A stretch of DNA of 64,000 nt, from contig NZ_SSMC01000001.1 in NCBI RefSeq assembly GCF_004799345.1, positions 1,364,001-1,428,000 of the forward strand, read 5' to 3'. Positions 26,290 through 56,925 of the stretch are shown here, piece by piece. Below the pieces are notes generated by a model. It worked only from the letters and a program-made list of their open reading frames with translations, did not search any database and was not told where the DNA came from. Each line of letters begins with the position of its first letter. The stretch's first letter is position 1. Both the position numbers and the translations under genes were made by a program. Source of the DNA: Robertkochia marina (GTDB taxonomy: Bacteria > Bacteroidota > Bacteroidia > Flavobacteriales > Flavobacteriaceae).

Positions 26290-26333
26290 TTGATAAGTAT
26301 CATATTTTTTCAGTGCCCTTTTAACTACCTTCT
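26290..26333 (+). promoter_or_regulatory. FNR-type operator and promoter, site 1
   Basis: Operator TGATAAGTATCA at 26291-26302 (TTGAT-N4-ATCA type), then exactly 23 nt, then TACCTTCT (26326-26333) as the -7 element. The operator centre is 68 bp upstream of the ATG at 26365. The same geometry recurs at four other places in the window. Confidence 0.65.
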
Positions 26334-26364
26334 GCTTTCGTAAATATCACAAAATCAAAGGATC

Positions 26365-26808
26365 ATGGCAGCAGAGAAAAAATATTTAATGCAGGAATGG
26401 AAAAGTGGTCAGGAGATGCATGAAGAGGCTGTTTTATGGATCTCATCGTTGGAGTTCATTACCTCTGAACATCACTTTTTCGAAGATCTTCTCAACGCCT
26501 ATTTCTTGCAGATATCCAACCAAGACCATTATAAAGAAGGCAAGGAACTGGTAACAGAGCTGGGGGAGAACAAGGTTAAGAATGATAGTTTAATTAATGA
26601 GGTCTCCACCCATAATAACAGCCTGATCGTATTGTTGGATGGTAAGAACGAATTCGAAAAGGAAGATCAGGTGAAAAGTGAGCACAGGAGTCTTGAAGCA
26701 AGAATGAAGGAACACGAAAAAGGTTTTAGAACACTTAAAGGTCATATTTTCGACCTTGTTGCTGCCATCATCAAAGAGATCAAAAAAGACCATCTACTGG
26801 GGCCATAA
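26365..26808 (+). CDS. Small helical-bundle protein, paralogue 1
   Basis: 147 aa, all-helical, charged, without a signal peptide or membrane segment. An N-terminal segment (QEMHEEAVLWISSLEFITSEHHFFEDLL) and a C-terminal one (HEKGFRTLKGHIFDLVAAI) are shared in pattern with the proteins at 28832 and 56956; the middle varies. Conserved His, Trp and Glu positions could suit a four-helix bundle, perhaps hemerythrin-like, but I cannot assign metal ligands. The function is unknown. A FNR-type promoter precedes it, which points to a role under low oxygen or stress. Confidence 0.75.
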   Translation: MAAEKKYLMQEWKSGQEMHEEAVLWISSLEFITSEHHFFEDLLNAYFLQISNQDHYKEGKELVTELGENKVKNDSLINEVSTHNNSLIVLLDGKNEFEKEDQVKSEHRSLEARMKEHEKGFRTLKGHIFDLVAAIIKEIKKDHLLGP

Positions 26809-26825
26809 ATGAAACTTTAAGAATC

Positions 26826-26856
26826 TTGACACTCGTTACTTTCTTTACTAATTTTA
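26826..26856 (+). promoter_or_regulatory. Candidate housekeeping promoter of cbpA
   Basis: TTG (26826-26828), 20 nt, then TAATTTTA (26849-26856), close to the Bacteroidetes consensus TTG-N19-TAnnTTTG. It ends 30 bp before the cbpA ATG. Confidence 0.4.
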
Positions 26857-26886
26857 AAGAAGAATCGGTTTTCACCCGTACATCTT

Positions 26887-27792
26887 ATGGAATTCATCGA
26901 TTACTATAGCGTTCTAGGATTGGATAAATCGGCTTCTGCGGCCGATATCAAGAAGGCCTACCGCAAATTAGCGAGAAAGTATCATCCTGATCTCAACCCC
27001 AATAACAAAGAAGCGGAACTTAAATTTAAACAGCTCAATGAGGCCCATGAGGTCTTAAGCGATCCGGACAAGCGTAAAAAATATGACCGTTACGGTAAAG
27101 ACTGGGAGCATGCCGAAGAGTTTGAAAAAGCTAAAGCCCGTCAGGGTAAATCATACTCACAACGTTCAGGGCCCTTTACTTATTCAGGTGAAGGTGCCGG
27201 AGCCGAAGATTTCTCAGATTTTTTTGAAGCCATGTTCGGAGGCGGAGGTGGTTTTGCAGGAAGAACAGGCAGAACTCAGTTTCGTGGTCAGGATCTTAAT
27301 GCCGATCTCGAGCTTCATTTACGCGATGTTTACAGCACTCATAAAAGAACATTAAATATAAACGGAAAGAACATCCGCATCACGGTTCCGGCCGGAATTG
27401 AAGACGGTCAAACCATCAGGATCAAAGGCCATGGAGGCCCGGGTGTTAACAATGGTCCGGCAGGCGATCTGTATATAACTTTCCGTATCGTTAATACCAC
27501 TCCTTTTAAGAGGGACGGGGCCAATTTGTATAAAACGGTTGAGATCTCACTTACAAAGGCCGTTTTGGGGGGAGAAATAACTACAGATACATTTGATGGT
27601 AAGGTAAAACTAAAGGTGAGCCCCGGGACTCAGAACGGAACCAAAGCTAAGCTGAAAGGCAAGGGGTTTCCACGCTACAAAAAGGAGGGTCAGTACGGAG
27701 ACCTGTTTATAACCTATAAGGTCAGACTGCCTGAGAAATTAACATCAGAACAGGAAGGCCTGTTCAAAGATCTTGAAAAAACAGGGCTTTAA
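26887..27792 (+). CDS. cbpA: CbpA-type DnaJ co-chaperone
   Basis: 301 aa. J domain in residues 1-70 with the HPD motif at 33-35 (YHPDLN), a Gly/Phe-rich linker ([11 protein letters not shown]) and two C-terminal substrate-binding domains ([19 protein letters not shown]). It lacks the zinc-finger region of DnaJ, which makes it CbpA-type. It stimulates DnaK ATPase. The next gene encodes its modulator CbpM, 10 bp downstream, as in Enterobacteria. Confidence 0.92.
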
Positions 27793-27802
27793 ACCGTGTA
27801 AA

Positions 27803-28093
27803 ATGAAAACTAGAATCAGCATAAATAAACTTTGTGAGATCTATGAGATCGATCCCGGATTTGTAATGTCGATCCAGGAAATGGATCTGGTGACTATCTA
27901 TGTTGAGGGGACTGAAAAATATGTAAGTACAGAAGAATTACCCCTGGTGGAAAAAATGGTGCGTCTTCATTTCGATCTGGGTATCAACCAGGAGGGCCTT
28001 CATACCATTCATCATCTGTTGGAACGGATGGAGGGGATGCAGGAGGAGATCAGACGTCTGAGAAACAGGTTAGATCTTTATGAAGATCTCTGA
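27803..28093 (+). CDS. cbpM: Chaperone modulator CbpM (MerR-like)
   Basis: 96 aa from MKTRISINKLC. CbpM binds the J domain of CbpA and inhibits it. The N-terminal part resembles a truncated MerR domain (ISINKLCEIYEID), and the C-terminus is a coiled helix (HHLLERMEGMQEEIRRLRNRL). A TTG start at 27773 would overlap cbpA; ATG 27803 is preferred. It ends 3 bp from the convergent LOG gene. Confidence 0.87.
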   Translation: MKTRISINKLCEIYEIDPGFVMSIQEMDLVTIYVEGTEKYVSTEELPLVEKMVRLHFDLGINQEGLHTIHHLLERMEGMQEEIRRLRNRLDLYEDL

Positions 28094-28096
28094 AGT

Positions 28097-28828
28097 TTAT
28101 TCCCCGAAAAGCCATTTTTGCCTGTAGGGCTTTTGAACCAATCCAAAGGCTTCGATGGCGTATTTTCTCAGATGATCTTTCATTTCTTCTACAGAGTCTG
28201 TCAGGAATAACAGATCCATATCCTCCCTTGCAATGCTTTCTTCCTCTGCCATTAATTGAATGTGTTCGTATAGCTCTTTATGGTATTCCTTTCCAATAAG
28301 AACCACGGGAAAGTGACTGATGATCCTGTTTTGTATGAGAGTAAGGGCTTCAAAGAGTTCATCAAGGGTGCCCATACCGCCTGGCATCACAATAAATGCA
28401 TAGGAATACTTCATCAGCATGACCTTGCGAATGAAGAAATAGGGGAAGTCGATCCATTTGTGCAGATAGGGATTAGGGACTTGTTCTTCGGGGAGTATAA
28501 TATTACAGCCTATCGATAATCCGTTATTCTCATAGGCGCCCCGATTAGCTGCCTCCATGAGTCCCGGACCGCCTCCGGTCATGACCCCAAATCCCATATC
28601 AGTTAGTGCCACACCGATATTCCGGGCTTTTTCGTAATAAGGGTTGTCTTCCAGAAACCGTGCAGAACCAAATACGGTAACACAAGGGCCTAAAAAGTGC
28701 ATTTTACGAAATGCCTTGATAAAATGATATTGTACCCGAAAGGTGAACAGAAATTCCCGAAAACGGTGCTTAGGCCCTTCCAGGAAACTGCGTTCATCTC
28801 TTGCCAGAGCATTGTTTCGGGGAATCAT
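28097..28828 (-). CDS. LOG-family (TIGR00730) nucleoside-5'-monophosphate phosphoribohydrolase
   Basis: 243 aa with the Rossmann-like LOG motifs GGGPGLMEAANRG and PGGMGTLDELFEAL, which bind and cleave a nucleotide such as AMP or a cytokinin riboside monophosphate. Bacterial members may act in purine salvage; there is no cytokinin pathway here. It is 3 bp downstream of paralogue 2 of the helical-bundle family and so is probably under the same FNR-type promoter. Confidence 0.88.
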   Translation of the reverse strand: MIPRNNALARDERSFLEGPKHRFREFLFTFRVQYHFIKAFRKMHFLGPCVTVFGSARFLEDNPYYEKARNIGVALTDMGFGVMTGGGPGLMEAANRGAYENNGLSIGCNIILPEEQVPNPYLHKWIDFPYFFIRKVMLMKYSYAFIVMPGGMGTLDELFEALTLIQNRIISHFPVVLIGKEYHKELYEHIQLMAEEESIAREDMDLLFLTDSVEEMKDHLRKYAIEAFGLVQKPYRQKWLFGE

Positions 28829-28831
28829 GGG

Positions 28832-29215
28832 TTACATATACTTGGATAGAAACGAGAAAAAACGTCTTTTCAGGTCGTGAAACATCACGCGTTCGGTTGT
28901 CATTTTCTCTCTCATCTCCAGGTGATAACGGAACCCGATCCGGTCTACTGCCTCATTCACTTCATCAATGGTTTCAGCTATGGCATGTTCATGAGCATTG
29001 ATCTCTTCTTTGAGTTTGTTGATACGGTCTTTGTGAATGATCATCTGGTTTTGAAACTGTCCGAGTTCTGCCAAAACCATATCATCGGTCCAGCGTTGTT
29101 CGATCTCGTCAAGTCGGTTTTGAAATGATCGGGTCTCATCGAGCCAGAAGGCAATTTCATTGAGCCAGCTTTTGTGTTCAAAATGCAGGTTGGCATTGTT
29201 TACTAAAGTTTCCAT
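28832..29215 (-). CDS. Small helical-bundle protein, paralogue 2
   Basis: 127 aa, all-helical, predicted cytosolic. N-terminal HFEHKSWLNEIAFWLDETRSFQ aligns in pattern with the N-termini of the proteins at 26365 and 56956 (acidic helix with Trp, spaced Phe), and the C-terminus FHDLKRRFFSFL matches their last helix. The function is unknown. Its promoter has operator TGATATATATCA centred 60 bp upstream, and the LOG gene follows in the same transcript. Confidence 0.75.
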   Translation of the reverse strand: METLVNNANLHFEHKSWLNEIAFWLDETRSFQNRLDEIEQRWTDDMVLAELGQFQNQMIIHKDRINKLKEEINAHEHAIAETIDEVNEAVDRIGFRYHLEMREKMTTERVMFHDLKRRFFSFLSKYM

Positions 29216-29237
29216 GATCTGTGTATTTAATGAATCG

Positions 29238-29280
29238 ATAAGTTAGTGGAAAACAGTAGGTTTAGTAATGATATATATCA
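29238..29280 (-). promoter_or_regulatory. FNR-type operator and promoter, site 2
   Basis: Perfect palindrome TGATATATATCA (29269-29280), then 23 nt on the minus strand, then TAACTTAT (29245-29238) as the -7 element. The operator overlaps the stop codon of the upstream ABC ATPase gene, so this promoter lies immediately after the efflux operon and drives the 29215 and 28828 genes. Confidence 0.7.
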
Positions 29281-29955
29281 TTGTTCGACAATACGGCCAT
29301 CCTCCATGTAAATGATCCTGTCGGTTTGCCGGGCAAAGTCTTCATCATGGGTAACGATGAGGAGGGAAAGCCCTTTTTCTTTTTTAAGTTTTTTAAAGAT
29401 ATTTAAAACATTGTCAGAGTTATGGCTGTCCAGATTCCCGGTGGGTTCATCTCCCATGAGAATGCTTGGTTCATTGATCAGGGCCCGGGCTATAGCTACC
29501 CGTTGCTTTTCACCACCCGATATTCGGCGGGCAAGCTTATGACCCAGGTGGCCAATATTCAACATATCCAGGATCTCCATGGCCTTAGCTTTGATCTCTG
29601 CATCAGATCGCTCTCCCAGTTTTTGAGCAGGAAGCATGATGTTTTCCAAAACGGTAAATTCTCCTAACAGGTAATGAAACTGAAACACAAAACCAATATG
29701 TTTATTACGCAGGTGAGCCAGTCGTGCTGCAGATTGACCGGTTATTAACTCATTATTCAGGTAGAGTTCGCCCTCATAATCAGTATCCATGGTAGAGAGT
29801 ATATAGAGCAGGGTACTTTTACCACAGCCTGATTTACCCATGATACTGGTAAACTCTCCTTTTTTGATCTCCAGGTTAATGTTTTTAAGAACGTGAAAAT
29901 CTACCGGCTTACGGAAATGTTTATTGAGGTTATGTGTTTTAAGTACAAAGTCCAT
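29278..29955 (-). CDS. ABC transporter ATPase (LolD/MacB-like)
   Basis: 225 aa cytosolic ATPase. Walker A GKSGCGKST, signature ISGGEKQRVAIARAL and Walker B ILMGDEPTGNLDS are intact. The sequence class (with NLDSHNSDNVL) is that of LolD and MacB ATPases, which work with FtsX-like permeases. The permease gene precedes it by 7 bp, and an adaptor lipoprotein gene lies at the head of the operon, so it powers an export or lipoprotein-release system of unknown substrate. Confidence 0.93.
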   Translation of the reverse strand: MDFVLKTHNLNKHFRKPVDFHVLKNINLEIKKGEFTSIMGKSGCGKSTLLYILSTMDTDYEGELYLNNELITGQSAARLAHLRNKHIGFVFQFHYLLGEFTVLENIMLPAQKLGERSDAEIKAKAMEILDMLNIGHLGHKLARRISGGEKQRVAIARALINEPSILMGDEPTGNLDSHNSDNVLNIFKKLKKEKGLSLLIVTHDEDFARQTDRIIYMEDGRIVEQ

Positions 29956-29962
29956 AAGCTTG

Positions 29963-32307: not shown

Positions 32308-32329
32308 GACCTCCCCAATTTTAGGATCC

Positions 32330-32404
32330 TTAAAATACGACCAATACCTGAGTTTTATATATGATATTTATCATAACTTGTAGGGGTTATATGTCCTAAT
32401 TTAG
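32330..32404. promoter_or_regulatory. Divergent FNR-type operator, site 3
   Basis: TGATATTTATCA at 32362-32373. On the plus strand TAATTTAG (32397-32404) follows after 23 nt, 24 bp before the usp ATG. On the minus strand TATTTTAA (32337-32330) follows after 24 nt, upstream of the adaptor gene. The operator centre is 61.5 bp from one ATG and 60.5 bp from the other, so one site may serve both promoters. Confidence 0.65.
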
Positions 32405-32428
32405 TTTTAAACCAATATTAAGTATATC

Positions 32429-33265
32429 ATGAAAAAGATTTTAGTACCTACAGACTTCTCTGAGAATGCCGTTCATGCCCTGAAGGTGGCTTCTCAGCTG
32501 GCAAGGAAATACAACGCTAAGTTGTACTTGCTGCACATGCTTGGAATATCTCAGGCCATCATTGGAAAAGATGAGGCCAACGAGGGAGCTGAAGCGATCT
32601 ATTACATGAAACTCGTTAAAAAACGTTTTGACGACCTTCGCAATGAAGATTATTTACAGGGGATAGAGATCGAGGAACTGGTTCAGAATTATAAAGTTTT
32701 CAGTGAGATCAACAATGTTGCTCATGAGAAAGGGGTCGACCTGATCGTGATGGGATCTCACGGAACCGGAATGATCAATGATTTCTTTGTGGGATCGAAT
32801 ACAGAGAAAGTGGTAAGGACAAGCGATTTTCCTGTGTTGGTCATCAAAGCCGATCGTCCGGACTTTAAGATGGAAAAAGTTGTTTTTGCATGCGATTTTG
32901 ACATAGAGAATATCCATGCATACAGAAGGGCTATGCATTTGTTCAAAAAGTTCGAAAGTGAGGTTCACCTTTTGTATGTAAACCTTCCGAATCAGAACTT
33001 CTTAAGTTCATTTGAAATGGAGGAGAAGGTAATGAACTTTTTAAAGGAGGCTGATGAGGGAGATCTTTCAAATCTGAATAAAGTAACCTATCACTCAGAT
33101 TATACGATTGAGAACGGGATCTATAATTTCAGTGCCCAGACCGGGGCTGATCTGATAGCCATTCCTACTCATGGAAGAAAGGGATTATCGCACTTTTTTA
33201 TGGGAAGCATAGGGGAAGACCTGGCTAATCATGCAGAATTACCGGTGATCACCTTTAAGATCTGA
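32429..33265 (+). CDS. Universal stress protein, tandem UspA domains
   Basis: 278 aa with two Usp domains. The first has KKILVPTDFSENAVHAL and an ATP-binding loop in IVMGSHGTG...FFVGSNTEKVV; the second ends LIAIPTHGRKGLSHFFMGS. The G-x2-G-x9-G(S) motif is intact in both, suggesting nucleotide binding. Probably cytosolic and produced from the FNR-type promoter at 32362. It is followed 5 bp later by the convergent thioredoxin gene. Confidence 0.93.
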   Translation: MKKILVPTDFSENAVHALKVASQLARKYNAKLYLLHMLGISQAIIGKDEANEGAEAIYYMKLVKKRFDDLRNEDYLQGIEIEELVQNYKVFSEINNVAHEKGVDLIVMGSHGTGMINDFFVGSNTEKVVRTSDFPVLVIKADRPDFKMEKVVFACDFDIENIHAYRRAMHLFKKFESEVHLLYVNLPNQNFLSSFEMEEKVMNFLKEADEGDLSNLNKVTYHSDYTIENGIYNFSAQTGADLIAIPTHGRKGLSHFFMGSIGEDLANHAELPVITFKI

Positions 33266-33270
33266 TCAGA

Positions 33271-33576
33271 TTAACCGTGTTGAGAGATGATCTGAAGGAG
33301 TTGCTGCTTGGGCAGTACACCTGATTGTCTCCAAAGCTGGCGACCGTCTTTAAACAGGATCATAGTAGGAACTCCTCTGACCTGATACCTGGCAGCCAGT
33401 TCGGTGTTTTTATCAACATCGATCTTTACAATCTTTAAACTGTCGCCCATTTCATCTTTAACTTCTTTGAGAATGGGCGACAGCATTTTACAGGGGCCGC
33501 ACCAATCGGCATAAAAGTCTACCAGTACCGGTACCTCGTCTTTAATAATGGCGTTAAAATTACTCTTCATGTTCAC
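33271..33576 (-). CDS. Thioredoxin
   Basis: 101 aa. The active site is C26-G-P-C29 in YADWCGPCKML, with the cis-Pro loop RGVPTMILF. Normal length for a cytosolic disulfide reductase. It is convergent with the usp gene and monocistronic. No FNR-type box is seen in its upstream 100 bp. Confidence 0.94.
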   Translation of the reverse strand: MNMKSNFNAIIKDEVPVLVDFYADWCGPCKMLSPILKEVKDEMGDSLKIVKIDVDKNTELAARYQVRGVPTMILFKDGRQLWRQSGVLPKQQLLQIISQHG

Positions 33577-34199: not shown

Positions 34200-34242
34200 T
34201 GATAATTATCATATCCTGAAAAGGAAATATGTGATACATTCC
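34200..34242 (+). promoter_or_regulatory. FNR-type operator and promoter, site 4
   Basis: TGATAATTATCA (34200-34211), 23 nt, TACATTCC (34235-34242). Operator centre 62.5 bp upstream of the ATG at 34268. It drives the six-gene operon ending at 39482. The operator starts 25 bp after the DUF302 stop codon. Confidence 0.7.
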
Positions 34243-34267
34243 TTGTAAACAGCAAACCATATAAAAA

Positions 34268-35107
34268 ATGAAAAGGATCGTATTGCCAACAGATTTTTCC
34301 GATAACGCATGGAATGCCATTTCATATGCGGTACAATTGTTTCGCGATGAGCCTTGCGAATTCACTTTTTTACATACCTATGTGCCTGCCTTGTACCGGG
34401 TTGATTATGCGATCGGAGGCCCCGCTTACAGTGGTATAGACGATGCCATGATACAGGCTACGATCAGCGGCCTGGAAAATACCGTGGCACGGGTAGAAAA
34501 GGAATTTCCGAATTCAAATCACACCTATCACCAGCACTATGCATTCAATCTACTTACCGATGAGGTGAAAGAAGTGTGCGAGGAAAAGGGTGTTGATCTC
34601 ATTATTATGGGGACTAAAGGCGCAACAGGAGCTGAAAAGATCCTGTTTGGATCTAATGCCGTTTTTATGATGCGTAAGGTGAGTACCCCCCTGATCGTAG
34701 TGCCGGGAGATTATCAATACACCCCGCCACGGAACGTTTTGTTTCCGAACGATTTCCTTAAAATTCCGGAGGCTGATGCTCTTATTCCACTTACAGAACT
34801 GCTGCAGCGTTATGAGGCACGGTTAAATGTTGTGCATGTAGAGGAAGATCGGGAATTAAGCAAACAACAATTGCACAATAAACAAGTGTTGTATGAGCGC
34901 CTGAAAGGATGTGACTTTGATTTTAATGAAATAAAGAATGCTTTTATGCCGGATGCCATTAAAGACCAGGTGCATGCCGGAAAATATGATATGCTGGTCA
35001 TGATGAATCGTAAACACTCATTTTTGGAAAGGGTCTTACTCAGGCAAAATGTAGATACCCTGGGGTTTGAAGTGGAAATACCTTTTCTGGTGTTGAGAGA
35101 ACAATAA
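34268..35107 (+). CDS. Universal stress protein, tandem Usp domains
   Basis: 279 aa. The first domain is complete (KRIVLPTDFSDNAWNAI; IIMGTKGATGAEKILFGSNAVF). The second is degenerate: it lacks the G-rich loop and reads LVMMNRKHSFLERVLLRQ. One nucleotide-binding site is therefore expected. First of three consecutive usp genes with the same two-domain layout, separated by 9 and 25 bp. Confidence 0.92.
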   Translation: MKRIVLPTDFSDNAWNAISYAVQLFRDEPCEFTFLHTYVPALYRVDYAIGGPAYSGIDDAMIQATISGLENTVARVEKEFPNSNHTYHQHYAFNLLTDEVKEVCEEKGVDLIIMGTKGATGAEKILFGSNAVFMMRKVSTPLIVVPGDYQYTPPRNVLFPNDFLKIPEADALIPLTELLQRYEARLNVVHVEEDRELSKQQLHNKQVLYERLKGCDFDFNEIKNAFMPDAIKDQVHAGKYDMLVMMNRKHSFLERVLLRQNVDTLGFEVEIPFLVLREQ

Positions 35108-35116
35108 TAATAACGG

Positions 35117-35965
35117 ATGAATAAGATCTTATTACCGACAGATTATTCGGAGGTTTCTGTAAAGGCTATTGACTATGCATCAAAGCTTTTCGGAGATTAC
35201 GGATGTGAGTTTAATGTAGTGCACTCTTTTCTGCTCAGCAGATCAGGACTCTCACGACTCCGAAAGCGGTATAAAGACACTAAGGACTTTCGTAAATCAG
35301 AAGCAGCAGCCAAGGATGAGATGCGCAAGCTTCTTCGTTCTCTTTTAGAGTCCCATAAAAATGACCCTCATGTGTACAGGGCGTATGTTACGGCCCAACG
35401 CATTCCGGATAGTATAAAGCAAAGTGTGCTGGAACTGCAATGCGATATGGTCGTTATGGCCACCACCGGGGCATCGGGCCTGAAGGAAGTATTCCTGGGG
35501 AGTAATGCTGTAAAGGTGATCAAGAAGATCGACTTCTGTCCGTTGCTTCTTGTTCCGGCCGGCTATGAATATGTTCCGGTAAAAAAGATCCTGTTCGTCA
35601 ATGATTTCAGAAGAAATTTTGAAATAGAAGAGCTTACCCCGTTAAGAGCAATGGCCAGGGTAACCGGAGCCAAAGTGGTATTGTTGTACGTCAATGACGG
35701 AGAACCTTTTACTCCCATCCAGGAAGGAAACCGGGTAAAACTTCTGGAGATGTTTTCGGGGATCGAAGTGGAAGAGCAACAAATGCCTATGGATAATTTT
35801 TTGACGGATATCATTGAAGAATACAGTGAGAATCACGGGGTAAATATGCTGGCCATGATCAGGAATAAGCACCACCCTGTGTACCGGTTGCTGCGGGAAC
35901 CCGTGGTAAAGCGTATCGCATTCAGCAGTGCAATACCTTTTTTGGTGATGCCTGAGGTAGTTTAG
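35117..35965 (+). CDS. Universal stress protein, tandem Usp domains
   Basis: 282 aa. N-terminal NKILLPTDYSEVSVKAIDYA and loop VVMATTGASGLKEVFLGSNAV form a complete first domain; the second domain again ends in a degenerate AMIRNKHHPVYRLL. The repeated loss of the second-site loop in all three operon members suggests a regulatory, asymmetric protein. It is in the six-gene operon with the 34268 and 35991 usp genes. Confidence 0.92.
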   Translation: MNKILLPTDYSEVSVKAIDYASKLFGDYGCEFNVVHSFLLSRSGLSRLRKRYKDTKDFRKSEAAAKDEMRKLLRSLLESHKNDPHVYRAYVTAQRIPDSIKQSVLELQCDMVVMATTGASGLKEVFLGSNAVKVIKKIDFCPLLLVPAGYEYVPVKKILFVNDFRRNFEIEELTPLRAMARVTGAKVVLLYVNDGEPFTPIQEGNRVKLLEMFSGIEVEEQQMPMDNFLTDIIEEYSENHGVNMLAMIRNKHHPVYRLLREPVVKRIAFSSAIPFLVMPEVV

Positions 35966-35990
35966 ATAAAATCAAATAAAATAAAATAAA

Positions 35991-36833
35991 ATGAAACGTA
36001 TCATTATACCCACCGACTTTTCAGCTCATGCCACCCAGGCCGTTGAGTACTGCCATCGCTTGTTTGAGGGAGAAGAGGTAACCTGGGTATTGTTGCACAC
36101 CTTTGGTGCCGATGTCTATGCCTCGGCAGCTTCTATGGGACTCAAGGCAGACACCTCTGCAATGGACACCCTCCTGCAGGCATCCGATTCCAGGTTACTG
36201 CAATTGAAAGAAGATCTTCAAAGTACCTTTGGTCAGGAAAATTTTACGTACGAGATTGTATCCAGATATGATTTTCTTCCCGAAGCGATCAATTTTCTGC
36301 TGAGTGAACAACCTGCCTTTATGGTAGCCATGGGTACCCAGGGGGCTACCGGAGCCAAAGAGATCTTTCTGGGGAGTAATGCCGTTCGGATCATGGAAAA
36401 AGTAACCGATACTGCAGTGTTTGCTATTCCGGAACAGGCATCATTTGTAACTCCGCGTAAAATAGCCCTGGCAACTACCTATTCGCACCTGCCGGTAGAT
36501 TCACAGATGGAAGTGTTTAAACATTTTGCCAGGGTGTTCAGGACAGAAGTGACCATGATCCATATTTCTGATGAGGTGCGTTTGAATGAGAAACAAGTGC
36601 AATACCGTAATTGGTTGCAAAAGGCCCTGAGTGACCACGATCCGGCTATCTACACCCTCAACAATAAACATATAGGGAAGGCCATCGAAGAGTATATTGA
36701 AAATACCAGTACAGATATACTCGGGATCATAAGCAGAAAACACGGTTTTTTCGAGAGTTTACTGAAAAAATCAACCCTGAAAGACCTCGGATATCACAGT
36801 AAAATACCACTGCTTGTAATGCATCACCAATAA
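35991..36833 (+). CDS. Universal stress protein, tandem Usp domains
   Basis: 280 aa. First domain KRIIIPTDFSAHATQAVEY with loop VAMGTQGATGAKEIFLGSNAV; second domain ends in ISRKHGFFESLLKK without a Gly loop, as in the two preceding genes. Third usp of the operon; the gene for an eRF1-like protein follows after 20 bp. Confidence 0.92.
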   Translation: MKRIIIPTDFSAHATQAVEYCHRLFEGEEVTWVLLHTFGADVYASAASMGLKADTSAMDTLLQASDSRLLQLKEDLQSTFGQENFTYEIVSRYDFLPEAINFLLSEQPAFMVAMGTQGATGAKEIFLGSNAVRIMEKVTDTAVFAIPEQASFVTPRKIALATTYSHLPVDSQMEVFKHFARVFRTEVTMIHISDEVRLNEKQVQYRNWLQKALSDHDPAIYTLNNKHIGKAIEEYIENTSTDILGIISRKHGFFESLLKKSTLKDLGYHSKIPLLVMHHQ

Positions 36834-36853: not shown

Positions 36854-37261
36854 ATGAAAAATGTAGGCGTATGGATGGATAAGGAAAAAGCTATGATCGT
36901 AACAGTGAATGGTACAGAAACCGATATGACCATCCTTGAAAGTGAAGTAGAAGATTTCAGAGCAGTGGGAGGATCACGATCCAAGACCAAATGGGGGCCT
37001 CAGGATGTGGTACAGGACAGTAAGTATACCGAACGGGAAAAGCATCAGATGAAACGTTATTTTGAAGAGCTTTCAAAAGCCCTTGCAGAAGCAGACCTCC
37101 TGGTACTTTACGGTCCGGCAGATACTAACAGGAAATTCAAGCATTTTCTTGAAGACCATCATAAGAACATGGCCGAAAAGGTAAAGGCCGTTGAAAAGGC
37201 TGATAGCATGACAGAGAACCAGGTGAAGGCCCTGATAAGAGACTACTTTAATAATGGCTGA
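36854..37261 (+). CDS. Small eRF1-domain-3/BaeRF-like protein
   Basis: 135 aa, predicted cytosolic. The pattern VGVWMDKEKAMIVTV, SEVEDFRAVGGSR, then a helix and LLVLYGPADTNRKFKHFL resembles the release-factor domain 3 fold of BaeRF/Vms1-like proteins, in which a GPA-x-x-K element is typical. Such proteins are proposed to act at ribosomes; whether this one does is inference. It has no recognised catalytic residue. It lies between usp and nuclease genes in the same operon. Confidence 0.55.
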   Translation: MKNVGVWMDKEKAMIVTVNGTETDMTILESEVEDFRAVGGSRSKTKWGPQDVVQDSKYTEREKHQMKRYFEELSKALAEADLLVLYGPADTNRKFKHFLEDHHKNMAEKVKAVEKADSMTENQVKALIRDYFNNG

Positions 37262-37282
37262 AAAGCTTCATGTTTTTTAGAA

Positions 37283-38125
37283 TTGGCTACCGGTCACATA
37301 TTTATCACCAAATCGTCGGGGGAAAAGGTCGAATTTTCCCTCGACAAGATTAAAGCCTCTCTGAGAAGAACCGGGGCTGATGATCCTTTGATCGAAAAAA
37401 TTCTCGCTACCCTTGCCGATGAGGTATACGATGGTATTACCACCGGGGAAGTCTATAACCGTGCCTATGCCATGTTAAAGCAAGCCCGCTCTGTGCTGGC
37501 TTCCAGGTATAAATTAAAAAGGGCCATCTACGAACTGGGCCCGACAGGATTTCCTTTTGAAAAATTCATAGCAGCCATTCTCCAGTATTCCGGGTACCAT
37601 ACCGAAACCGGGGTTGTTATAGCGGGGAAATGCGTGCATCATGAGGTGGATGTGCTGGCCCGTAAAAACGGAACGGTGACCCCGATAGAATGTAAGTTTC
37701 ACGGACAGCAGGGTATTAATTGCAATGTGAAGGTACCCCTTTATATATATTCGAGGTATACCGATATCCTGGAGAACTGGAAAAAGGAAGATCAGCTGCA
37801 ACCTGTGTGGGTGGCTACCAATACACGATTTACAAAAGACGCCATTGAATACGGCCATTGCAGGGGGATGTATCTTTTAAGCTGGGATCTGCCGGAAGGG
37901 GATAGCCTCAAGGAGCGGATCGACCGATTGGGGTTATACCCCATTACAGCCTCTTCACTGCTTACCTCCCGGGATAAGAACTACCTTTTGGAAAAGGGAG
38001 TGGTTTTATGTCGCGACCTTATGAAGGAGTCATTTTACCTTGATCATGCAGGGATTTCTGAATCGCGACAGAAAAGAATACTTGATGAAATGCATAAACT
38101 CTGCCAATGTGGAAACCACCTTTAG
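37283..38125 (+). CDS. ATP-cone domain fused to a PD-(D/E)XK nuclease-like domain
   Basis: 280 aa. Residues 5-85 form an ATP-cone (VEFSLDKIKASLRRTGADD), the nucleotide-sensing domain known from ribonucleotide reductase and NrdR. Residues 90-190 have a restriction-endonuclease-like core with D123 (HEVDVL) and E136-x-K138 (PIECKF). The predicted role is an ATP/dATP-sensing nuclease. The start is TTG; no in-frame ATG precedes the ATP-cone. Its end overlaps the next gene by 41 bp, so translation is probably coupled. Confidence 0.8.
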   Translation: MATGHIFITKSSGEKVEFSLDKIKASLRRTGADDPLIEKILATLADEVYDGITTGEVYNRAYAMLKQARSVLASRYKLKRAIYELGPTGFPFEKFIAAILQYSGYHTETGVVIAGKCVHHEVDVLARKNGTVTPIECKFHGQQGINCNVKVPLYIYSRYTDILENWKKEDQLQPVWVATNTRFTKDAIEYGHCRGMYLLSWDLPEGDSLKERIDRLGLYPITASSLLTSRDKNYLLEKGVVLCRDLMKESFYLDHAGISESRQKRILDEMHKLCQCGNHL

Positions 38126-39482
38126 CATAAAATTTCTTGGAGCAGCAGGTACGGTTACCGGATCTAAGTACCTTTTGGAAACCTCTGAACTCAGGATCCT
38201 GATCGATTGTGGTTTGTTTCAGGGAGAAAAATCACTTCGGGAAAAGAACTGGGAACCTCTGGAGGTTGATGCCTCTACCATTGATCTGGTGATTCTTACC
38301 CACGGTCATCTCGACCATGTGGGCTTTCTGCCCAGACTGGTACGACTGGGGTTTCGCGGTCGTATTTACGCTACTTCTCCCACCCTGAGCATTACCCGCA
38401 TTATTCTGGAAGATTCTGCTAAGATCCAGGAAGAGGATGCAGAACAAGCGAATCGGGAAGGATATTCCAGGCATGATCCGGCTTTACCCCTCTATGATCA
38501 GCATGATGTGGAAAGCACCTTTGATCGTTTAGACCCACAACCGGCGGGAGTCTATATTGAATTGGCTCCCGGCATCGGGTACAAACATCATTACGCTGGG
38601 CATATTCTCGGTGCTACCTGGTTGACGTTTGAGATTCATGGTAAAACGGTGGTGTTTTCCGGAGACCTGGGAAGGGAAAATGATCTCCTGCTCAGGGAGG
38701 TTGAAAAACCAAAAAAAGCAGACATCATCATTATGGAGTCTACCTATGGAGACAGAGAGCGCCTGGAAGAGGATGTTAATGAGCTGCTTGTTTCTTTGGT
38801 CAATGAGGTCATACACAAACGGGGAAATTTAATAGTGCCGAGTTTTGCAGTAGAAAGGGCCCAACTCCTGGTGTATTATTTCTGGAAGCTGTATACCAGA
38901 AACCGAATCCCTGCCATTCCGGTAGTGGTAGACAGCCCCATGAGCAATAAGGTGTTTGACAGTTTTTTCAAATATCCTGACTGGCATAAACTTGATATAG
39001 CGACCCTGGGGGAGATGTTGAATTATGTTGAAGTAGTAGATTCATATCGTGATACCTGGCGGATAATAGATCGGAAGCAGCCTAAAGTGGTCATTGCAGG
39101 CAGTGGTATGATCACCGGTGGCAGGGTGCTCACCTATCTGCAACAGCTCATAGATGAGCCCGAGACCATCGTTTTACTGGCCGGTTACCAGGCCGAAGGC
39201 ACCCGGGGAAGGGACCTTCTGGAAGGAGCAGCAACCTTAAAGTTTTTTGGAAAGGAATACCCGGTAAGGGCCAGGGTAGAGTGCCTGCAAAGCCTATCGG
39301 CCCATGCCGACCAAAGTGAATTACTGGATTGGTTAAGCGACCTGGAATCAACCCCCGAGAAGATTTTTCTGGTACACGGAGAACCCGAGGCAGCACAGGC
39401 ATTAAAAGAAGAGCTCGAAAAGAACTACGGGTTTAAGGTGGAGATCCCGGAGATGGGAACTGTTAGGGAAATAGGGATGTAG
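38085..39482 (+). CDS. Beta-CASP metallo-beta-lactamase-fold hydrolase (RNA-processing type)
   Basis: 465 aa from MKCINSANVE. MBL motif H73xH75xD77H78 (THGHLDHVG), further metal ligands in HYAGHILGA and FSGDLG, and beta-CASP elements STYGDRE and SAHADQ with C-terminal VHGEPEA. This is the family of CPSF73-like and RNase J-like nucleases (YsH1/RMMBL proteins), so an endo- or exoribonuclease is likely. An earlier ATG at 38040 is possible but lies deeper in the upstream gene. It ends the operon; a 16-bp tandem duplication straddles the stop codon. Confidence 0.88.
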   Translation: MKCINSANVETTFSIKFLGAAGTVTGSKYLLETSELRILIDCGLFQGEKSLREKNWEPLEVDASTIDLVILTHGHLDHVGFLPRLVRLGFRGRIYATSPTLSITRIILEDSAKIQEEDAEQANREGYSRHDPALPLYDQHDVESTFDRLDPQPAGVYIELAPGIGYKHHYAGHILGATWLTFEIHGKTVVFSGDLGRENDLLLREVEKPKKADIIIMESTYGDRERLEEDVNELLVSLVNEVIHKRGNLIVPSFAVERAQLLVYYFWKLYTRNRIPAIPVVVDSPMSNKVFDSFFKYPDWHKLDIATLGEMLNYVEVVDSYRDTWRIIDRKQPKVVIAGSGMITGGRVLTYLQQLIDEPETIVLLAGYQAEGTRGRDLLEGAATLKFFGKEYPVRARVECLQSLSAHADQSELLDWLSDLESTPEKIFLVHGEPEAAQALKEELEKNYGFKVEIPEMGTVREIGM

Positions 39483-52465: not shown

Positions 52466-52474
52466 TCGCCTTTA

Positions 52475-52537
52475 CCAGCGCGCCAGCTGGCTCCTTCGCT
52501 AAAAACAGCCACTGGCTGTTTTTTACACGCTCGGTCC
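52475..52537 (+). repeat. 63-bp interspersed palindromic repeat, copy D
   Basis: Plus-strand copy with GCGCGCCAGCTGGC at the 5' side and the hairpin AAAAACAGCC-ACT-GGCTGTTTTT in the centre. The same 63-bp length as copies A, B and C. Confidence 0.75.
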
Positions 52538-52795
52538 CTCGCGAAGACGAAGAACCACCCCACCCGCAAAGCGGGTACCCCTCCTTGGAAAGGAGGGGGT
52601 ATATTCCATATTCAAAATTGGATTTTTAATAGGAATTCATTCTATAAAAAGATTCTTTCTCCTTCCCCTATGAGGGGAAGGTGGCGCAGCCGGAAGGGGT
52701 GTGCTTAAGGTTTACTTCGATTATCTTTAATGGTAGTACTTGCCCAAACCAGTCCCTCAAACCATGCCTGAGGCAGGCAGGCTCGTCCCTCGAAC

Positions 52796-54820
52796 TTACT
52801 TCCTGTACTTATCAAACCAGGCCACGGTATGAGCGATCTTGGAGATCAGGTTACTCGGACGGTTGGCGATACCGTGAGAGGCCTTGGGTATTTCTACTAA
52901 TACGGTTTCCTTTTCTCTGAGCTTCAGGGCATGGTACAATTGTTTTGCCTCACTGGGGGGTGTGCGCAGGTCTTCCATTCCCACCATCACCATGGTAGGG
53001 GTTTCTATATTGCCTACCAGGGAGATAGGTGAGAACTTCCAGTACGTGTCAAAATTTTCCCAGGGTTGTCCGGGGTAACGGTAATTGGCATAACCGTAAT
53101 AATTGTCGGCTGTCAGGGTTTTGCTGATCCAGTTCATAACCGGTTTGGCCACCACTGCTGCCTCAAAACGATTGTTCTTCCCGATGATCCATGCTGTCAT
53201 GATACCCCCGGCACTACCTCCTGTAACAAAGAGCTGATCTTCTGAGGCCAGGCCTTCTTTGATAAGGTGGTCTACACCATCCATGACATCCTGGTAATCA
53301 TCTCCGGGGTAGTTGTTATAGAGGAGGTTTCCGAATTCTTCTCCGTAACTGGTGCTCCCGCGTGGATTGGGGTAAAACACCATGTAACCGGCTGAGGCGT
53401 ATAATTGCATCTCTGCAGAAAACCGATCCCCGTAGTTAGAAATAGGGCCTCCATGATTCTCAACGATTAAAGGGTAGTTTTTACCCTCCTCGTAATAAGG
53501 AGGCTTTACCAGCCATCCCTGGAGATCGCGGCCATCAACCGATGATTTATACCATACTTCTTCAACGGCTCCAAGTTCCTTGTGCCCGAGCAGATCTGAA
53601 TTCAGGTCAGAAACCTTGACGGTAGTGTTTGCTTTGTTCTCAGACAAGGCCAGTTCTGCCGGGTGCTCCGGGGTGGTATAGGTGTAAGCTATACGTTCTT
53701 TGGCAGAGACCGAATACGATCCGCCGCCATAGGGCCGACCAACAGAGGTGCCACCGAGATTGTGGGCTATGGTCTTGATATTTCCTTTCAGGTCGGTATA
53801 GGCGATCTTGGTGTTTCCTTTATCATCATACATGAAATAGATCTTATCGCCTTTTTTGTTCCAGGTGAGTGCAAATACACTTCGGTCAAGTTGATCAGTG
53901 AGCGAGCGCATATTCTGACCATCAATATCCATTACAAAAAGGTCTTCGGTTTGATAGGTCTGTACCTGGTCTTCAAATCCTCTGAAGGCAATCGTTTTTC
54001 CATCAGGAGAAACCACCGGATTATCGTCAGGCCCCTTTTTATTCGTAAGGGCTGTAATATTAAGATCTTTCAGGTCCAGCCGGTAGATCTCACTGTTTCT
54101 GAAATCATATTCCCAGTTGTCGTTTCGGTTTGCCGAAAAATAGATGGAATTACCATCGGGCGACCAGGATACCTCTCCGCCGTGGTTAAAGTCCCCGTTG
54201 GTAAGTTGTCTTGGGCTACCTCCGTTTGCGGGGATCAGGAAAATATGACTGTAACCCGGAGACAGGTAGCCTCGGCCATCAGCTTCGTGTTTCAGGCGGT
54301 CGGTAATACGGGCTGTTCCTGCCCATTCAGCTCCTTTAGGCTTTTCCGGCATTTTCGCGATCACCGGCTCCTTTTCTTCCACCTGCATCGAAAAGCTCAG
54401 CCATTGACCATCGGGCGACCAACTCAGGTTGCCGGGACTTTTCTCCAGCCTGGAGATACGGGCTGAGGTTCCCGTTTTTGTCCAGTACATAAAAAGCTCG
54501 CTTCCCTGTTCAGTGCTGCTTATATAAGCAATGCGGTCTGCATTTGGTGACCATCTGGCAGCATATTCATTTCCCGAACCATTGGTGAGCTTATAATGCT
54601 TTTCATCTTCAATATCATAGATCCACAGATCACCTTTTCGTTTGTCATCCATGATGTCAAAGTAGTTGCGCACATAGATCACCTGATCTCCCTGAGGAGA
54701 GATCTGAGGGTCTGAGATGTATTCGAGTTCAAAAACATCAAGGTAATCAAAGGTGTTCTTCTCCTGTGCTTTTACGAATGAAGTAATAGAAATGAATAAG
54801 AAAAGCAGGTATTTTTTCAT
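52796..54820 (-). CDS. S9-family prolyl oligopeptidase-like peptidase
   Basis: 674 aa. Signal peptide MKKYLLFLFISITSFVKAQ. Residues 30-400 form a TolB-like beta-propeller (WSPDGQWLSFSMQ, WSPDGNSIYFSAN, SPDGKTIAF). The C-terminal 260 residues are the alpha/beta-hydrolase catalytic domain with Ser in GGSAGGIM and His in KASHGIA. A periplasmic aminopeptidase or oligopeptidase is predicted. It stands alone on the minus strand; the upstream region carries a G-rich stretch. Confidence 0.93.
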   Translation of the reverse strand: MKKYLLFLFISITSFVKAQEKNTFDYLDVFELEYISDPQISPQGDQVIYVRNYFDIMDDKRKGDLWIYDIEDEKHYKLTNGSGNEYAARWSPNADRIAYISSTEQGSELFMYWTKTGTSARISRLEKSPGNLSWSPDGQWLSFSMQVEEKEPVIAKMPEKPKGAEWAGTARITDRLKHEADGRGYLSPGYSHIFLIPANGGSPRQLTNGDFNHGGEVSWSPDGNSIYFSANRNDNWEYDFRNSEIYRLDLKDLNITALTNKKGPDDNPVVSPDGKTIAFRGFEDQVQTYQTEDLFVMDIDGQNMRSLTDQLDRSVFALTWNKKGDKIYFMYDDKGNTKIAYTDLKGNIKTIAHNLGGTSVGRPYGGGSYSVSAKERIAYTYTTPEHPAELALSENKANTTVKVSDLNSDLLGHKELGAVEEVWYKSSVDGRDLQGWLVKPPYYEEGKNYPLIVENHGGPISNYGDRFSAEMQLYASAGYMVFYPNPRGSTSYGEEFGNLLYNNYPGDDYQDVMDGVDHLIKEGLASEDQLFVTGGSAGGIMTAWIIGKNNRFEAAVVAKPVMNWISKTLTADNYYGYANYRYPGQPWENFDTYWKFSPISLVGNIETPTMVMVGMEDLRTPPSEAKQLYHALKLREKETVLVEIPKASHGIANRPSNLISKIAHTVAWFDKYRK

Positions 54821-54876
54821 GTTGTTTGGCTTAAAAGAGCTCTAAATGTAGGAGTTTTTTGGGAAATATGGTAGGT

Positions 54877-54899
54877 GGGCGGGTAAGCGGGTAGGTGGG
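54877..54899 (+). repeat. G-rich tract with G-quadruplex potential
   Basis: Four GGG runs (54877-54879, 54881-54883, 54889-54891, 54897-54899) separated by 1, 5 and 5 nt fit the simple quadruplex rule. It is in the upstream region of the minus-strand peptidase gene, about 60 bp before its ATG, on the non-template side for that gene's opposite strand. Confidence 0.4.
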
Positions 54900-55046
54900 T
54901 AGGCTGGAATTGACAATTCGGGAAGCTCAAATAAATTCAGCAGCGGTGGGGGAACGTCAACAAAGAAATGGTCAAATCCATTGACTGTAGATCAGGGGAG
55001 ATGAAAAAAACTAAACGAATAGCTGATATCTGACCTTGTTCTGGGG

Positions 55047-55232
55047 CTAATTGTCATCATTCACCTCATTATTTTCCGGGGTGAAGGTGAATAAAAAGGC
55101 GGCGCTTAAGGTGATAAGGAGGCCAATGCCGAGAATAAAATCAGAGAGGTCGTAATAGAATAAATGGAGGATGCATCCAATGATAACAAGGGCTACCCCC
55201 AGAATCAAAATGTTCAGGCGTGTCAGGTTCAT
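55047..55232 (-). CDS. Small two-helix membrane protein
   Basis: 61 aa. Two hydrophobic segments (LNILILGVALVIIGCILHLF and FILGIGLLITLSAAFLFTF) with an acidic tail (ENNEVNDDN). No family recognised. Good start, hydrophobic balance and length make it a plausible real gene, but it has no recognisable neighbours on the strand. Confidence 0.5.
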   Translation of the reverse strand: MNLTRLNILILGVALVIIGCILHLFYYDLSDFILGIGLLITLSAAFLFTFTPENNEVNDDN

Positions 55233-55332
55233 GATAGTATTTATAAAATTTGGGCATTGTAATATAATAAATAAATAATTAATCAGTAAAATCTTACAAT
55301 AATCTCACTTTTTTAAAATTCCGAATAAGGGA

Positions 55333-55362
55333 TTGGCTCCTTACGCCTTAAGAATATCTTTA
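55333..55362 (+). promoter_or_regulatory. Promoter of the candidate small RNA
   Basis: TTG (55333-55335), 19 nt, TATCTTTA (55355-55362); this matches the Bacteroidetes housekeeping consensus with ideal spacing. Transcription should start near 55367. Confidence 0.6.
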
Positions 55363-55366
55363 AGTT

Positions 55367-55563
55367 AATAACACAAGGGCAATGATTACTTTTTATACAA
55401 GAAACCTTTACATAACACTTTAGGGTTAGGTTTGTAATGTAAACAGTTAATGCTGTTTCAGCCGTATCATTTATCTGGGTAGGTGATTCGGTAAATAATC
55501 AATTTACTTACTTCGTTCTTCCGGGAGTGCCTTTGTCGCAAGATAGGGGCATTCCCTTTTTTT
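55367..55563 (+). ncRNA. Candidate small RNA of about 195 nt
   Basis: Starts just after a promoter and ends in a T-tract terminator, with no ORF between. Predicted hairpins: TTTACAT/ATGTAAA (55407-55413 with 55437-55443), AACAG/CTGTT (55442-55457, alternative), CCGTATCA/TGATTCGG (55462-55469 with 55484-55491), GTAAAT-AATCA-ATTTAC (55491-55507) and the terminator. The 5' end (AAGGGCAATG, 55375-55384) can also pair with CATTCCCTT, competing with the terminator. Two readings: an independent sRNA or a leader; a second promoter after the terminator favours the former. Confidence 0.55.
55523..55563 (+). terminator. Rho-independent terminator
   Basis: GGGAGTGCC (55523-55531) / GGCATTCCC (55548-55556) with one G-U pair, followed by seven T. 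No plus-strand protein gene lies upstream for 3.2 kb, so it ends the candidate small RNA. Confidence 0.75.
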
Positions 55564-55581
55564 AATACACCTTATTTCGTA

Positions 55582-55612
55582 TTGTTTCTCTGAGTGTCAT
55601 GTGTTATCTTTA
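55582..55612 (+). promoter_or_regulatory. Promoter of the CE2-like esterase gene
   Basis: TTG (55582-55584), 20 nt, TATCTTTA (55605-55612), ending 18 bp before ATG 55630. It has the same -7 sequence as the small RNA promoter and lies just downstream of the terminator. Confidence 0.55.
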
Positions 55613-55629
55613 AGGGTAAATCCCTCTAT

Positions 55630-56838
55630 ATGATACGATTCTCTTTCCTTTTATTGGTTTTACTCACAGTTTTAACGGGTTGTCGACAGGAGCCTGAAAA
55701 ATCATCGGCCCCTCCTGAACCGGAGCCGGAACATATTGATGAAGGTGCTGAAAGTACAGAGCCCGGAATGGCCTATTTATATGGGCAAACCGATGAGATC
55801 GACATAGGTTTCAGGAATTTTTTCACCACTTTCGGACGAACCACCACAGCTGCTGATGGAAGTATAGAACTGATCAGTCCGGCTTCTGCGGTTCGGTTTC
55901 AAGCCAGGGGAGGAGCCTTGCACATTCGTATGAGAACACCAGGCAATGATCATGCCTACGTGTTAGTTACCGTGAACGGAGAGCCGGAAAATAAATATAA
56001 GATCAAAGGGAAGGGGCTCACCGCAGTAGAGGTTGGATTTGAAGATGAAAATACCTGGTATGAAATCGGGATACATAAACTTACTGAAGCCCATAACGGA
56101 GCCATTGTTTTTATAGACGCCGACGCTCAGCAAATAAAGGAATCTGTTTATAAGAAAGACCTTCAGATCGAATTTATAGGGAATTCCATTACCTGTGGCT
56201 ATGGTGCAGATACAGCTGATATACCATGTGGTACCGATGTGAATTACGATCAGCACAATGCCTGGAAAGGTTATGCTGTTCAGGTGGCCAATAGTATTGA
56301 TGCCGATTATAATTTAAGCGCGATCAGCGGTATAGGGATCTATCGCAATTACCGTGCAGACCGCAAAGAGGTAATGCCTGATGTTTACGGGAATCTTTAC
56401 CTGGATGAAGGTAGGCGGGCCCGGTGGAATCAGGAGGGATGGGATCCTGATATTGTGAGTGTATGTTTGGGTACCAATGACTTTTCTAAAGGATCTGATC
56501 CGGAGAACAGAGCGCCATTCGATCCTGAAAAATTTACCGCTGCTTATATTCGCTTTCTGGAGGAACTGGATAGGCGATATCCTGATGCAGCCTTTGGGTT
56601 GCTCACTTCTCCCATGTTAGACGCTGAGCAGAACAGAATACTTTCAGATTGTTTGTTTCGGGTAAAAGATCATTTCGGTTCTTCGGAAGTTATAGAGGTG
56701 TTCGAGTTTAGGGACAGATATATTTCAGGTTGCGCCGGTCATCCGGACCTTAAAGAACACGAATTAATGGCCCAACAGCTTCAACCTTTCTACCGGAGTC
56801 TGCTTAACAACCGGGAAGGAATGCCGGGGGAAGGATAA
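55630..56838 (+). CDS. CE2-like SGNH/GDSL esterase lipoprotein
   Basis: 402 aa from ATG 55630; a GTG at 55594 is open but weaker. Lipobox LTGC follows a signal peptide (MIRFSFLLLVLLTVLTG). The N-terminal 130 residues are a jelly-roll, carbohydrate-esterase-2-like domain (FGRTTTAADGSIELISPAS). The hydrolase domain has GNSITCGYG (Ser), GTNDFSKGSD and a His in GHPDLKEH. CE2 enzymes deacetylate xylan or similar glycans. Alone in its direction. Confidence 0.85.
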   Translation: MIRFSFLLLVLLTVLTGCRQEPEKSSAPPEPEPEHIDEGAESTEPGMAYLYGQTDEIDIGFRNFFTTFGRTTTAADGSIELISPASAVRFQARGGALHIRMRTPGNDHAYVLVTVNGEPENKYKIKGKGLTAVEVGFEDENTWYEIGIHKLTEAHNGAIVFIDADAQQIKESVYKKDLQIEFIGNSITCGYGADTADIPCGTDVNYDQHNAWKGYAVQVANSIDADYNLSAISGIGIYRNYRADRKEVMPDVYGNLYLDEGRRARWNQEGWDPDIVSVCLGTNDFSKGSDPENRAPFDPEKFTAAYIRFLEELDRRYPDAAFGLLTSPMLDAEQNRILSDCLFRVKDHFGSSEVIEVFEFRDRYISGCAGHPDLKEHELMAQQLQPFYRSLLNNREGMPGEG

Positions 56839-56882
56839 ATACTTTATGTAAATCAAAACAGTTGTTTTTTACATATTTAGAA

Positions 56883-56925
56883 TGACAAAAATCATGTTTT
56901 CGAAACGGGTATTGTCTTAATTTAG
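56883..56925 (+). promoter_or_regulatory. FNR-type operator and promoter, site 5
   Basis: TGACAAAAATCA (56883-56894, flanked by A and T) keeps the TGA...TCA arms but has two inner changes; TAATTTAG (56918-56925) follows after exactly 23 nt and is identical to the plus-strand -7 box of site 3. Centre 67.5 bp upstream of ATG 56956. Confidence 0.55.

Follow-up and report, generated by a model that had tools for sequence, protein, structure and literature searches.

The stretch analyzed here, called the window in the following, comprises 64,000 nucleotides of the genome of Robertkochia marina (contig NZ_SSMC01000001.1, positions 1,364,001 to 1,428,000), and it contains five promoters of one composite form, in which a palindromic operator is followed at a fixed distance by a -7 element TAnnTT. 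A preliminary description of this DNA had attributed these sites to an oxygen-sensing activator of the CRP/FNR family that controls stress genes, and the five operators do lie at the places named there. Operator 1, TGATAAGTATCA (TTGATAAGTATCAT with its flanks), occupies 26291..26302 on the forward strand with its predicted centre at -41.5, and the -7 element TACCTT at 26326..26331 (+) would place the transcription start near 26338. Operator 2, TGATATATATCA (ATGATATATATCAT with flanks; 29269..29280), is found on the reverse strand together with TAACTT at 29240..29245 (-) and a predicted start near 29233. The other three again read forward, namely operator 3, TGATATTTATCA (ATGATATTTATCAT with flanks; 32362..32373), with TAATTT at 32397..32402 and a predicted start near 32409, operator 4, TGATAATTATCA (CTGATAATTATCAT with flanks; 34200..34211), with TACATT at 34235..34240 and a predicted start near 34247, and operator 5, TGACAAAAATCA (ATGACAAAAATCAT with flanks; 56883..56894), with TAATTT at 56918..56923 and a predicted start near 56930. 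The operator centres lie 59.5 to 68.5 nucleotides before the start codons by coordinates (60-68 bp had been claimed), and the predicted leaders measure 18 to 27 nucleotides.

Promoter 1 precedes a helical protein of 147 amino acids (26365..26808, +), which has no Pfam match and is predicted as a three-helix bundle, and a DnaJ-type co-chaperone (26887..27792, +; PF00226, PF01556) that is likely co-transcribed with it. Behind promoter 2 lie a second helical paralogue of 127 amino acids (28832..29215, -) and, as second gene of a presumed operon, a LOG-type Rossmann-fold protein (28097..28828, -; PF03641, TIGR00730). Promoter 3 serves a universal stress protein (32429..33265, +; PF00582), and promoter 4 three consecutive universal stress protein genes starting at 34268, 35117 and 35991 (34268..36833, +). 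The probable remainder of the latter operon (36854..39482, +) encodes a 135-residue protein without Pfam match, a 280-residue protein with weak ATP-cone and endonuclease matches and a hydrolase with metallo-beta-lactamase/beta-CASP domains; a similar gene order is present in a relative (L097). Promoter 5 precedes the third helical paralogue (139 amino acids; 56956..57375, +), followed in a presumed operon by a protein with two CBS domains (57387..57809, +; PF00571). The helical proteins belong to a family of about 130 amino acids with four copies seen in the genome, the three of the window, none of which has a Pfam match, and one in stretch L090 (9405-9839). Among 51 members in the fetched stretches, 19 have a composite promoter within 250 nucleotides upstream. 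The predicted three-helix bundle (predicted local distance difference test score 89.6) has no match in the PDB at E ≤0.001.

TAnnTT begins exactly 23 nucleotides after the operator in all five window promoters, as had been reported, and the judgment that chance would hardly produce this agreement is supported by 200 dinucleotide shuffles (mean 0.025, maximum 1). The TAnnTT part of the expected -7 element TAnnTTTG held, while its final G did not, the bases after TAnnTT being CT, AT, AG, CC and AG. The window contains 10 copies of TGATNNNNATCA, where shuffling leads one to expect 1.74, and 5 of 24 oriented TGAYNNNNRTCA sites have TAnnTT at 23, compared with at most two at every other spacing from 0 to 59 (binomial p = 1.4e-7 if the background is taken from the window and 6.8e-6 if it is taken from intergenic DNA). 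The genome scan proposed in the preliminary description found the strict composite 11 times in the 3.58 Mb on 11 contigs and the reversed pattern once; strict composites at L092 15169, inside a gene, and at C1:331177 (L002) were not counted as targets. This control is too lenient, and because the palindrome alone is far more common than its own reverse in this genome (181 versus 20 occurrences), the reversed pattern was dropped as sole control and replaced by spacing spectra on the same sites. Sites with a TGAC or GTCA half, a form invisible to the selecting pattern and counted for this genome in fetched stretches, were then considered in the window together with 20 stretches chosen for motif hits, regulators or neighbourhood. 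Of 64 such sites that are intergenic and oriented, 25 show spacing 23, with a mean of 0.93 and a maximum of 4 at the other 54 spacings. Intergenic is defined here by longest-frame gene calling, by which starts can be misplaced and false frames called; for example, an overlapping frame caused the nadA site of L094 to be scored as coding. The same peak appears in relatives selected by two candidate regulators, A and B, which are described below. In loci chosen by B, spacing 23 accounts for 100 of 237 oriented intergenic sites (mean 3.9 at other spacings; at least one in 19 of 20 loci), in loci chosen by A for 34 of 96 (mean 1.8; 16 of 19 loci, L148 being left out since it has no A by threshold) and in 80 named B loci, the best 80 of at least 580 confirmed, for 384 of 836 (mean 12.0; 80 of 80 loci). 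The named loci L162 and L151 overlap genomes G049 and G007 of the smaller locus sets, and the two spacing sets are therefore not independent. The next-largest peak lies at spacing 0 (20, 18 and 56 counts in the B loci, the A loci and the 80 named B loci); it arises because a T-rich flank follows the ATCAT of the operator, and the idea that it marks a separate promoter class was set aside. Outside the family the composite becomes sparser: 65 of 107 further phylum genomes have at least one, and these 107 average 1.8 copies with up to 16 in a single genome (0.3 on average for the control), the mean in ten family genomes of the same draw other than our own being 12.8. A- or B-like proteins at 1e-30 were found in 38 of 118 phylum genomes.

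The preliminary description had assumed the operator TTGAT-N4-ATCAA, and this point has to be revised. In a census of 510 unique composites from L109 to L228, TTGAY-N4-RTCAA accounts for 1 and MTGAY-N4-RTCAT for 418, the remaining 91 having other forms, and the outer operator base on the promoter side is T in 482. Judged from its sequence, MTGAY-N4-RTCAT is a site that would act like an FNR box yet differs from one. The -7 box in relatives reads TAnnTTTR (T 0.77; A and G 0.47 each), and the mapped sigma-A box TAnnTTTG of Flavobacterium psychrophilum is reported to span -12 to -5 (PMC9723704). With a spacing of 23 nucleotides, the palindrome centre would therefore fall at -41.5, which agrees with the activator position assumed before and marks these as probable class II CRP/FNR-dependent promoters, with start sites predicted from the relative. 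The median predicted leader is 18 nucleotides for the 547 composites that have a downstream gene. Fur/PerR boxes were set aside because their half-sites stand further apart than those of a 12-bp palindrome. Upstream of a second, distant oxidase gene in genome G036 (L245) lies TTGACATTTATCAA, whose outer bases are those of the classic FNR box and which is followed by TAGGTT at spacing 23; this site may belong to another regulator.

Altogether, the window and 140 fetched stretches contain 592 composites, 45 of them without a downstream gene, and the clusters of genes behind the other 547 include universal stress proteins (237), a cluster that we would call TerB-like (60; no Pfam match), S30AE ribosome hibernation factors (22), small helical proteins (21), Hsp20 (17) and the cbb3 oxidase subunit ccoN (16). 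The 60-promoter cluster, the second most common, is represented by a 137-residue protein without Pfam match (L118 6768-7178 and similar), whose gene is often, by eye, divergent to the operon of regulator B and its kinase. In the own genome, the stretches read contain further targets outside the window: the ccoN operon (TIGR00780), a row of Hsp20, helical protein, kinase and B genes, a flavodoxin-domain protein, NadA, a NiFe hydrogenase small subunit, a CBS protein, a hydrolase, DUF2267 and DUF3604. The hydrogenase gene (L094 12709-13916) has the composite promoter TGACAACAGTCA with TATTTT, which suggests hydrogen use at low oxygen. When chosen by gene (TIGR00780), 13 of 14 ccoN genes with at least 77% identity have a composite upstream, and the cbb3 oxidase is reported to be raised under oxygen limitation in F. 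psychrophilum (PMC9723704). In the relative G101, hemN (TIGR00538) lies behind a composite, and in G101 and G027 composites precede operons that on visual reading look like norCB and like a row leading to nosZ, the latter with a nos propeller match; no model for NorB matched. The sole HemN_C match of the own genome is of the HemW type (TIGR00539), and its upstream DNA contains no operator. Of two more frames of the Usp family that lie outside the window, one overlaps an upstream transporter frame and has no site, and the other (L253) is a near-miss with a TGAG half-site and then TAACAT at 23. A thioredoxin gene of the window (33271-33576, -) near the stress-protein promoters has no operator, and the thioredoxin cluster has composites in 12 loci. 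Elsewhere in the window, 2796-5544 and 20993-23633 hold two similar gene pairs with 2Fe-2S and molybdopterin-binding domains, which resemble xanthine dehydrogenase (the small subunit at 20993 was assigned by eye).

The search for Crp/Fnr-family regulator genes, likewise proposed before, yielded three proteins with HTH_Crp_2 in the own genome, two of which, A and B, combine PF00027 with PF13545 and thus belong to the CRP/FNR superfamily. The gene of A (C1:574334-575014) adjoins the cbb3 oxidase genes. Its best NCBIfam model is Fnr, at 98.8 bits and hence below the cut-off of 228 for FNR proper; its sequence aligns with FNR of Aliivibrio (A.) fischeri, and its best solved relative is 2gau, a Crp/Fnr protein of Porphyromonas, followed by FNR. 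Foldseek with the predicted model of A also returned 2gau first and then other CRP/FNR-type entries. The FNR cysteines C20, C23 and C122 are aligned in A and Ser stands at C29, which departs from the pattern of FNR proper. C4, C7, C53 and C106 of A do not vary among the 50 orthologues of the alignment, for which 50 of 53 references served, and are also kept in eight further Bacteroidota rows, five from other families (nine loci were given, and L269 yielded no row); A. fischeri FNR has Ala in the C53 column. The recognition helix of A is ATESxIR, that of most B rows A(T/P)E(S/T)xIR, so that E-(S/T)-x-I-R is common to both. Where A. fischeri FNR reads VETISR, A reads TESLIR, and the FNR serine at the position of this isoleucine is presumably Ser212. 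Upstream DNA of sufficient length was available for 54 A genes; an operator lies within 300 nucleotides of 45 of them, 6 of the 54 have one at the activating position, and 36 of the 45 operators are centred 40 to 59 nucleotides before the start codon (A gene in L012/L049), which suggests that A may repress its own gene. Self-repression through a proximal site is reported for rhizobial fnrN (PMC7888657).

Regulator B (L090 11253-12296, contig C2) has a receiver domain followed by a cyclic-nucleotide-binding-type and a Crp-type domain in a single open frame of about 350 amino acids, unlike the FixJ-FixK cascade, in which these parts belong to two proteins. Asp52 of the receiver is conserved in all 27 rows, of which the own protein makes up two, and in each of 26 cases the B gene is immediately preceded by a gene for more than 250 amino acids on the same strand. 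In the own genome B directly follows a PAS histidine kinase gene, in the row that a composite promoter opens with Hsp20; this suggests possible self-activation of the kinase-B operon here, although not in general. The closest solved relative of the kinase PAS domain is FixL (4.3e-10), followed by additional entries for FixL and DosP, and the histidine that serves FixL as haem ligand, in its EH pair, is aligned, as in PAS domains of the FixL/DosP type. A strict FixL-like signature with His is present in 71 of 79 distinct kinases (at least 380 amino acids, upstream of B, from 106 loci), and visual inspection shows the His in five of the other eight. The third regulator of the CRP type (L014) has the recognition helix SRVVISR, unlike ATESxIR, and was on this basis set aside as regulator of the sites; its gene (L014/L092 7126-7818) is followed by a TauE-type gene and a rhodanese/metallo-beta-lactamase gene.

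Both regulators co-occur with the motif. In 120 family genomes, apparently Flavobacteriaceae, A was detected in 69 (threshold 1e-60), B in 53 (1e-35) and both in 26, and these genomes contain 1015 motifs in total versus 168 for the reversed pattern. Genomes that are at least 90% complete and at least 2.5 Mb in size, the own genome excluded, have on average 14.2 motifs with A and B (n=24), 7.2 with A only (n=34), 9.3 with B only (n=25) and 0.67 with neither (n=6), the reversed-pattern means being 1.75, 1.82, 0.88 and 0.67; the difference in motif counts between genomes with A or B and those with neither gives p = 3.5e-5. In a search at 1e-50 covering 16 of the 24 genomes with neither regulator, seven with A only and seven with B only, no ccoN match was obtained in 13, 1 and 0 genomes, respectively. 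Among the 16, G020 has a ccoN gene behind a composite, and on the same contig an A relative of 39% identity.

These data are best accounted for by class II activation. A and B would occupy the palindromic operator MTGAY-N4-RTCAT, whose centre lies at -41.5, and bring RNA polymerase to promoters that have the -7 box TAnnTTTR, the operator and its T-rich flank standing in for an upstream promoter element. A, as a relative of FNR, is predicted to sense oxygen by an iron-sulfur cluster on C4, C7, C53 and C106, and the predicted switch for B is the PAS histidine kinase encoded next to it, whose PAS is similar to the haem PAS of FixL. When oxygen falls, A, B or both would turn on high-affinity respiration and a survival set of universal stress proteins, Hsp20, DnaJ and small helical proteins, joined in relatives by the ribosome hibernation factor. 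We put the probability that the window sites are class II activator sites for A and/or B within such a low-oxygen respiration and survival regulon at roughly four in five. The oxygen-sensing CRP/FNR-type activator of stress genes that had been proposed is thereby supported by the recurrent composite, by the regulators that accompany it and by the cbb3 promoters; its operator differs, in place of one regulator there are two candidates, and the regulon extends to respiration.

Several observations weigh against this interpretation. The link between regulators and motif is a co-occurrence among genomes related by descent, just six size-matched genomes have neither A nor B, and the less complete genomes G079, G055 and G048, among the 24 with neither, carry 6, 7 and 10 motifs. 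Conversely, no more than four motifs are present in 11 of the 43 genomes with A only and in 5 of the 27 with B only, and G040, one of the seven B-only genomes searched, has no operator before ccoN. The predicted structure of A is nearest to CRP-type entries, with holo-FNR mutants and wild type from rank 16 on. The PAS histidine is lacking in 3 of 79 kinases, and 1 of 75 B genes has no kinase beside it. Among 72 usable regions upstream of kinase-B operons, 47 have a composite that points solely to the divergent side, 16 are devoid of the operator, 8 have it without the box, and 1 has composites in both directions. Finally, the third CRP-type regulator was set aside by its sequence and not by experiment.

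Of the other explanations, the one that survives best assigns the stress genes to B and its kinase alone and respiration to A, the shared motif being inherited from a common ancestor and each protein keeping its own subset. The density of stress-gene promoters in B loci fits this, as do the position of the A gene beside the cbb3 genes and the motif mean of genomes with both regulators, which approximates the sum of the A-only and B-only means. However, the operator logos are alike in A-only (22 sites) and B-only genomes (32 sites), and the cbb3 promoters carry the composite in six of seven B-only genomes that have no A; the two sets are therefore not strictly separate, and we regard this division as unlikely, if worth keeping in view. 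CRP/FNR proteins sense many different signals, and the signal could be redox state, nitric oxide or carbon starvation in place of oxygen. CRP/FNR homologues of a Flavobacteriales metagenome-assembled genome are predicted to sense carbon (PMC8510549), which together with the kinases without PAS histidine would favour such a signal, but FixL and DosP as the closest solved PAS domains, the four invariant cysteines of A, the cbb3 oxidase as a target and hemN behind a composite in one relative make it improbable. Much less plausible still is an unrelated repressor or a structural role, with a spacing that merely mirrors promoter architecture: the operators before A genes, mostly close to the start codon and rarely at the activating position, do fit repression there, yet a repressor would tolerate several positions, and the single spacing that dominates hundreds of promoters is expected of a class II activator touching the polymerase. 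Chance palindromes in AT-rich intergenic DNA can practically be dismissed, for although the search control underestimates the palindrome background, the excess at spacing 23 in the named loci is measured on the same sites and the window shuffles never exceeded 1.

Among known systems, A resembles FNR of A. fischeri and E. coli in domain order and in three of four cluster cysteines, and differs from it by the missing C29, the invariant C53 and the Fnr model score. The promoters share with FNR class II promoters the predicted centre at -41.5 and respiratory targets, but the outer operator bases are A/C and T here and T and A in FNR. In Rhizobium leguminosarum, hFixL-FxkR-FixK and FnrN are reported to share the anaerobox (PMC7888657), and this is, as an analogy, the best precedent for two sensors on one operator: there, too, a two-component pathway headed by FixL and a cysteine-rich protein that senses directly act through a single operator in front of cbb3 genes (PMC7888657). 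Unlike in the rhizobial system, receiver and CRP output form one protein here, no intermediate gene was seen, the operator is not TTGAT-N4-ATCAA, and many stress genes are included. Anr/FnrL-type regulons of Proteobacteria are under low-oxygen FNR-type control and have universal stress proteins among their targets; the Bacteroidota -7 promoter, the altered operator and the receiver-CRP fusion set the present network apart from them. In the mycobacterial DosR regulon, a two-component system with haem sensors governs universal stress proteins along with a small heat-shock protein and a factor associated with ribosomes; DosR is a NarL/LuxR-type regulator with another operator, unlike A and B. No description of this flavobacterial network was found in the open-access PMC literature, a scope outside which most subscription papers fall. 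We infer an altered form of FNR and FixL-FixK control.

A more far-reaching proposal, to which we give slightly less than even odds, is that flavobacteria run a dormancy-like low-oxygen programme with one altered operator and two sensors, in which the fourth cluster ligand of the FNR-type A has moved from C29 to C53, B unites FixJ and FixK in one protein under the direct control of a FixL-like kinase, and the Ile that replaces the FNR Ser in both has changed the outer base and set the network apart from FNR boxes. The analysis supplies an operator, a promoter geometry, two regulator genes and a list of targets, and it predicts a relocated cluster cysteine and a shortened FixL relay. Flavobacteriaceae are major degraders in sea and soil, and the results would connect oxygen shortage in this family with universal stress proteins and with ribosome hibernation. 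They suggest that flavobacteria share a programme for survival at low oxygen, which may be under one or two related regulators.

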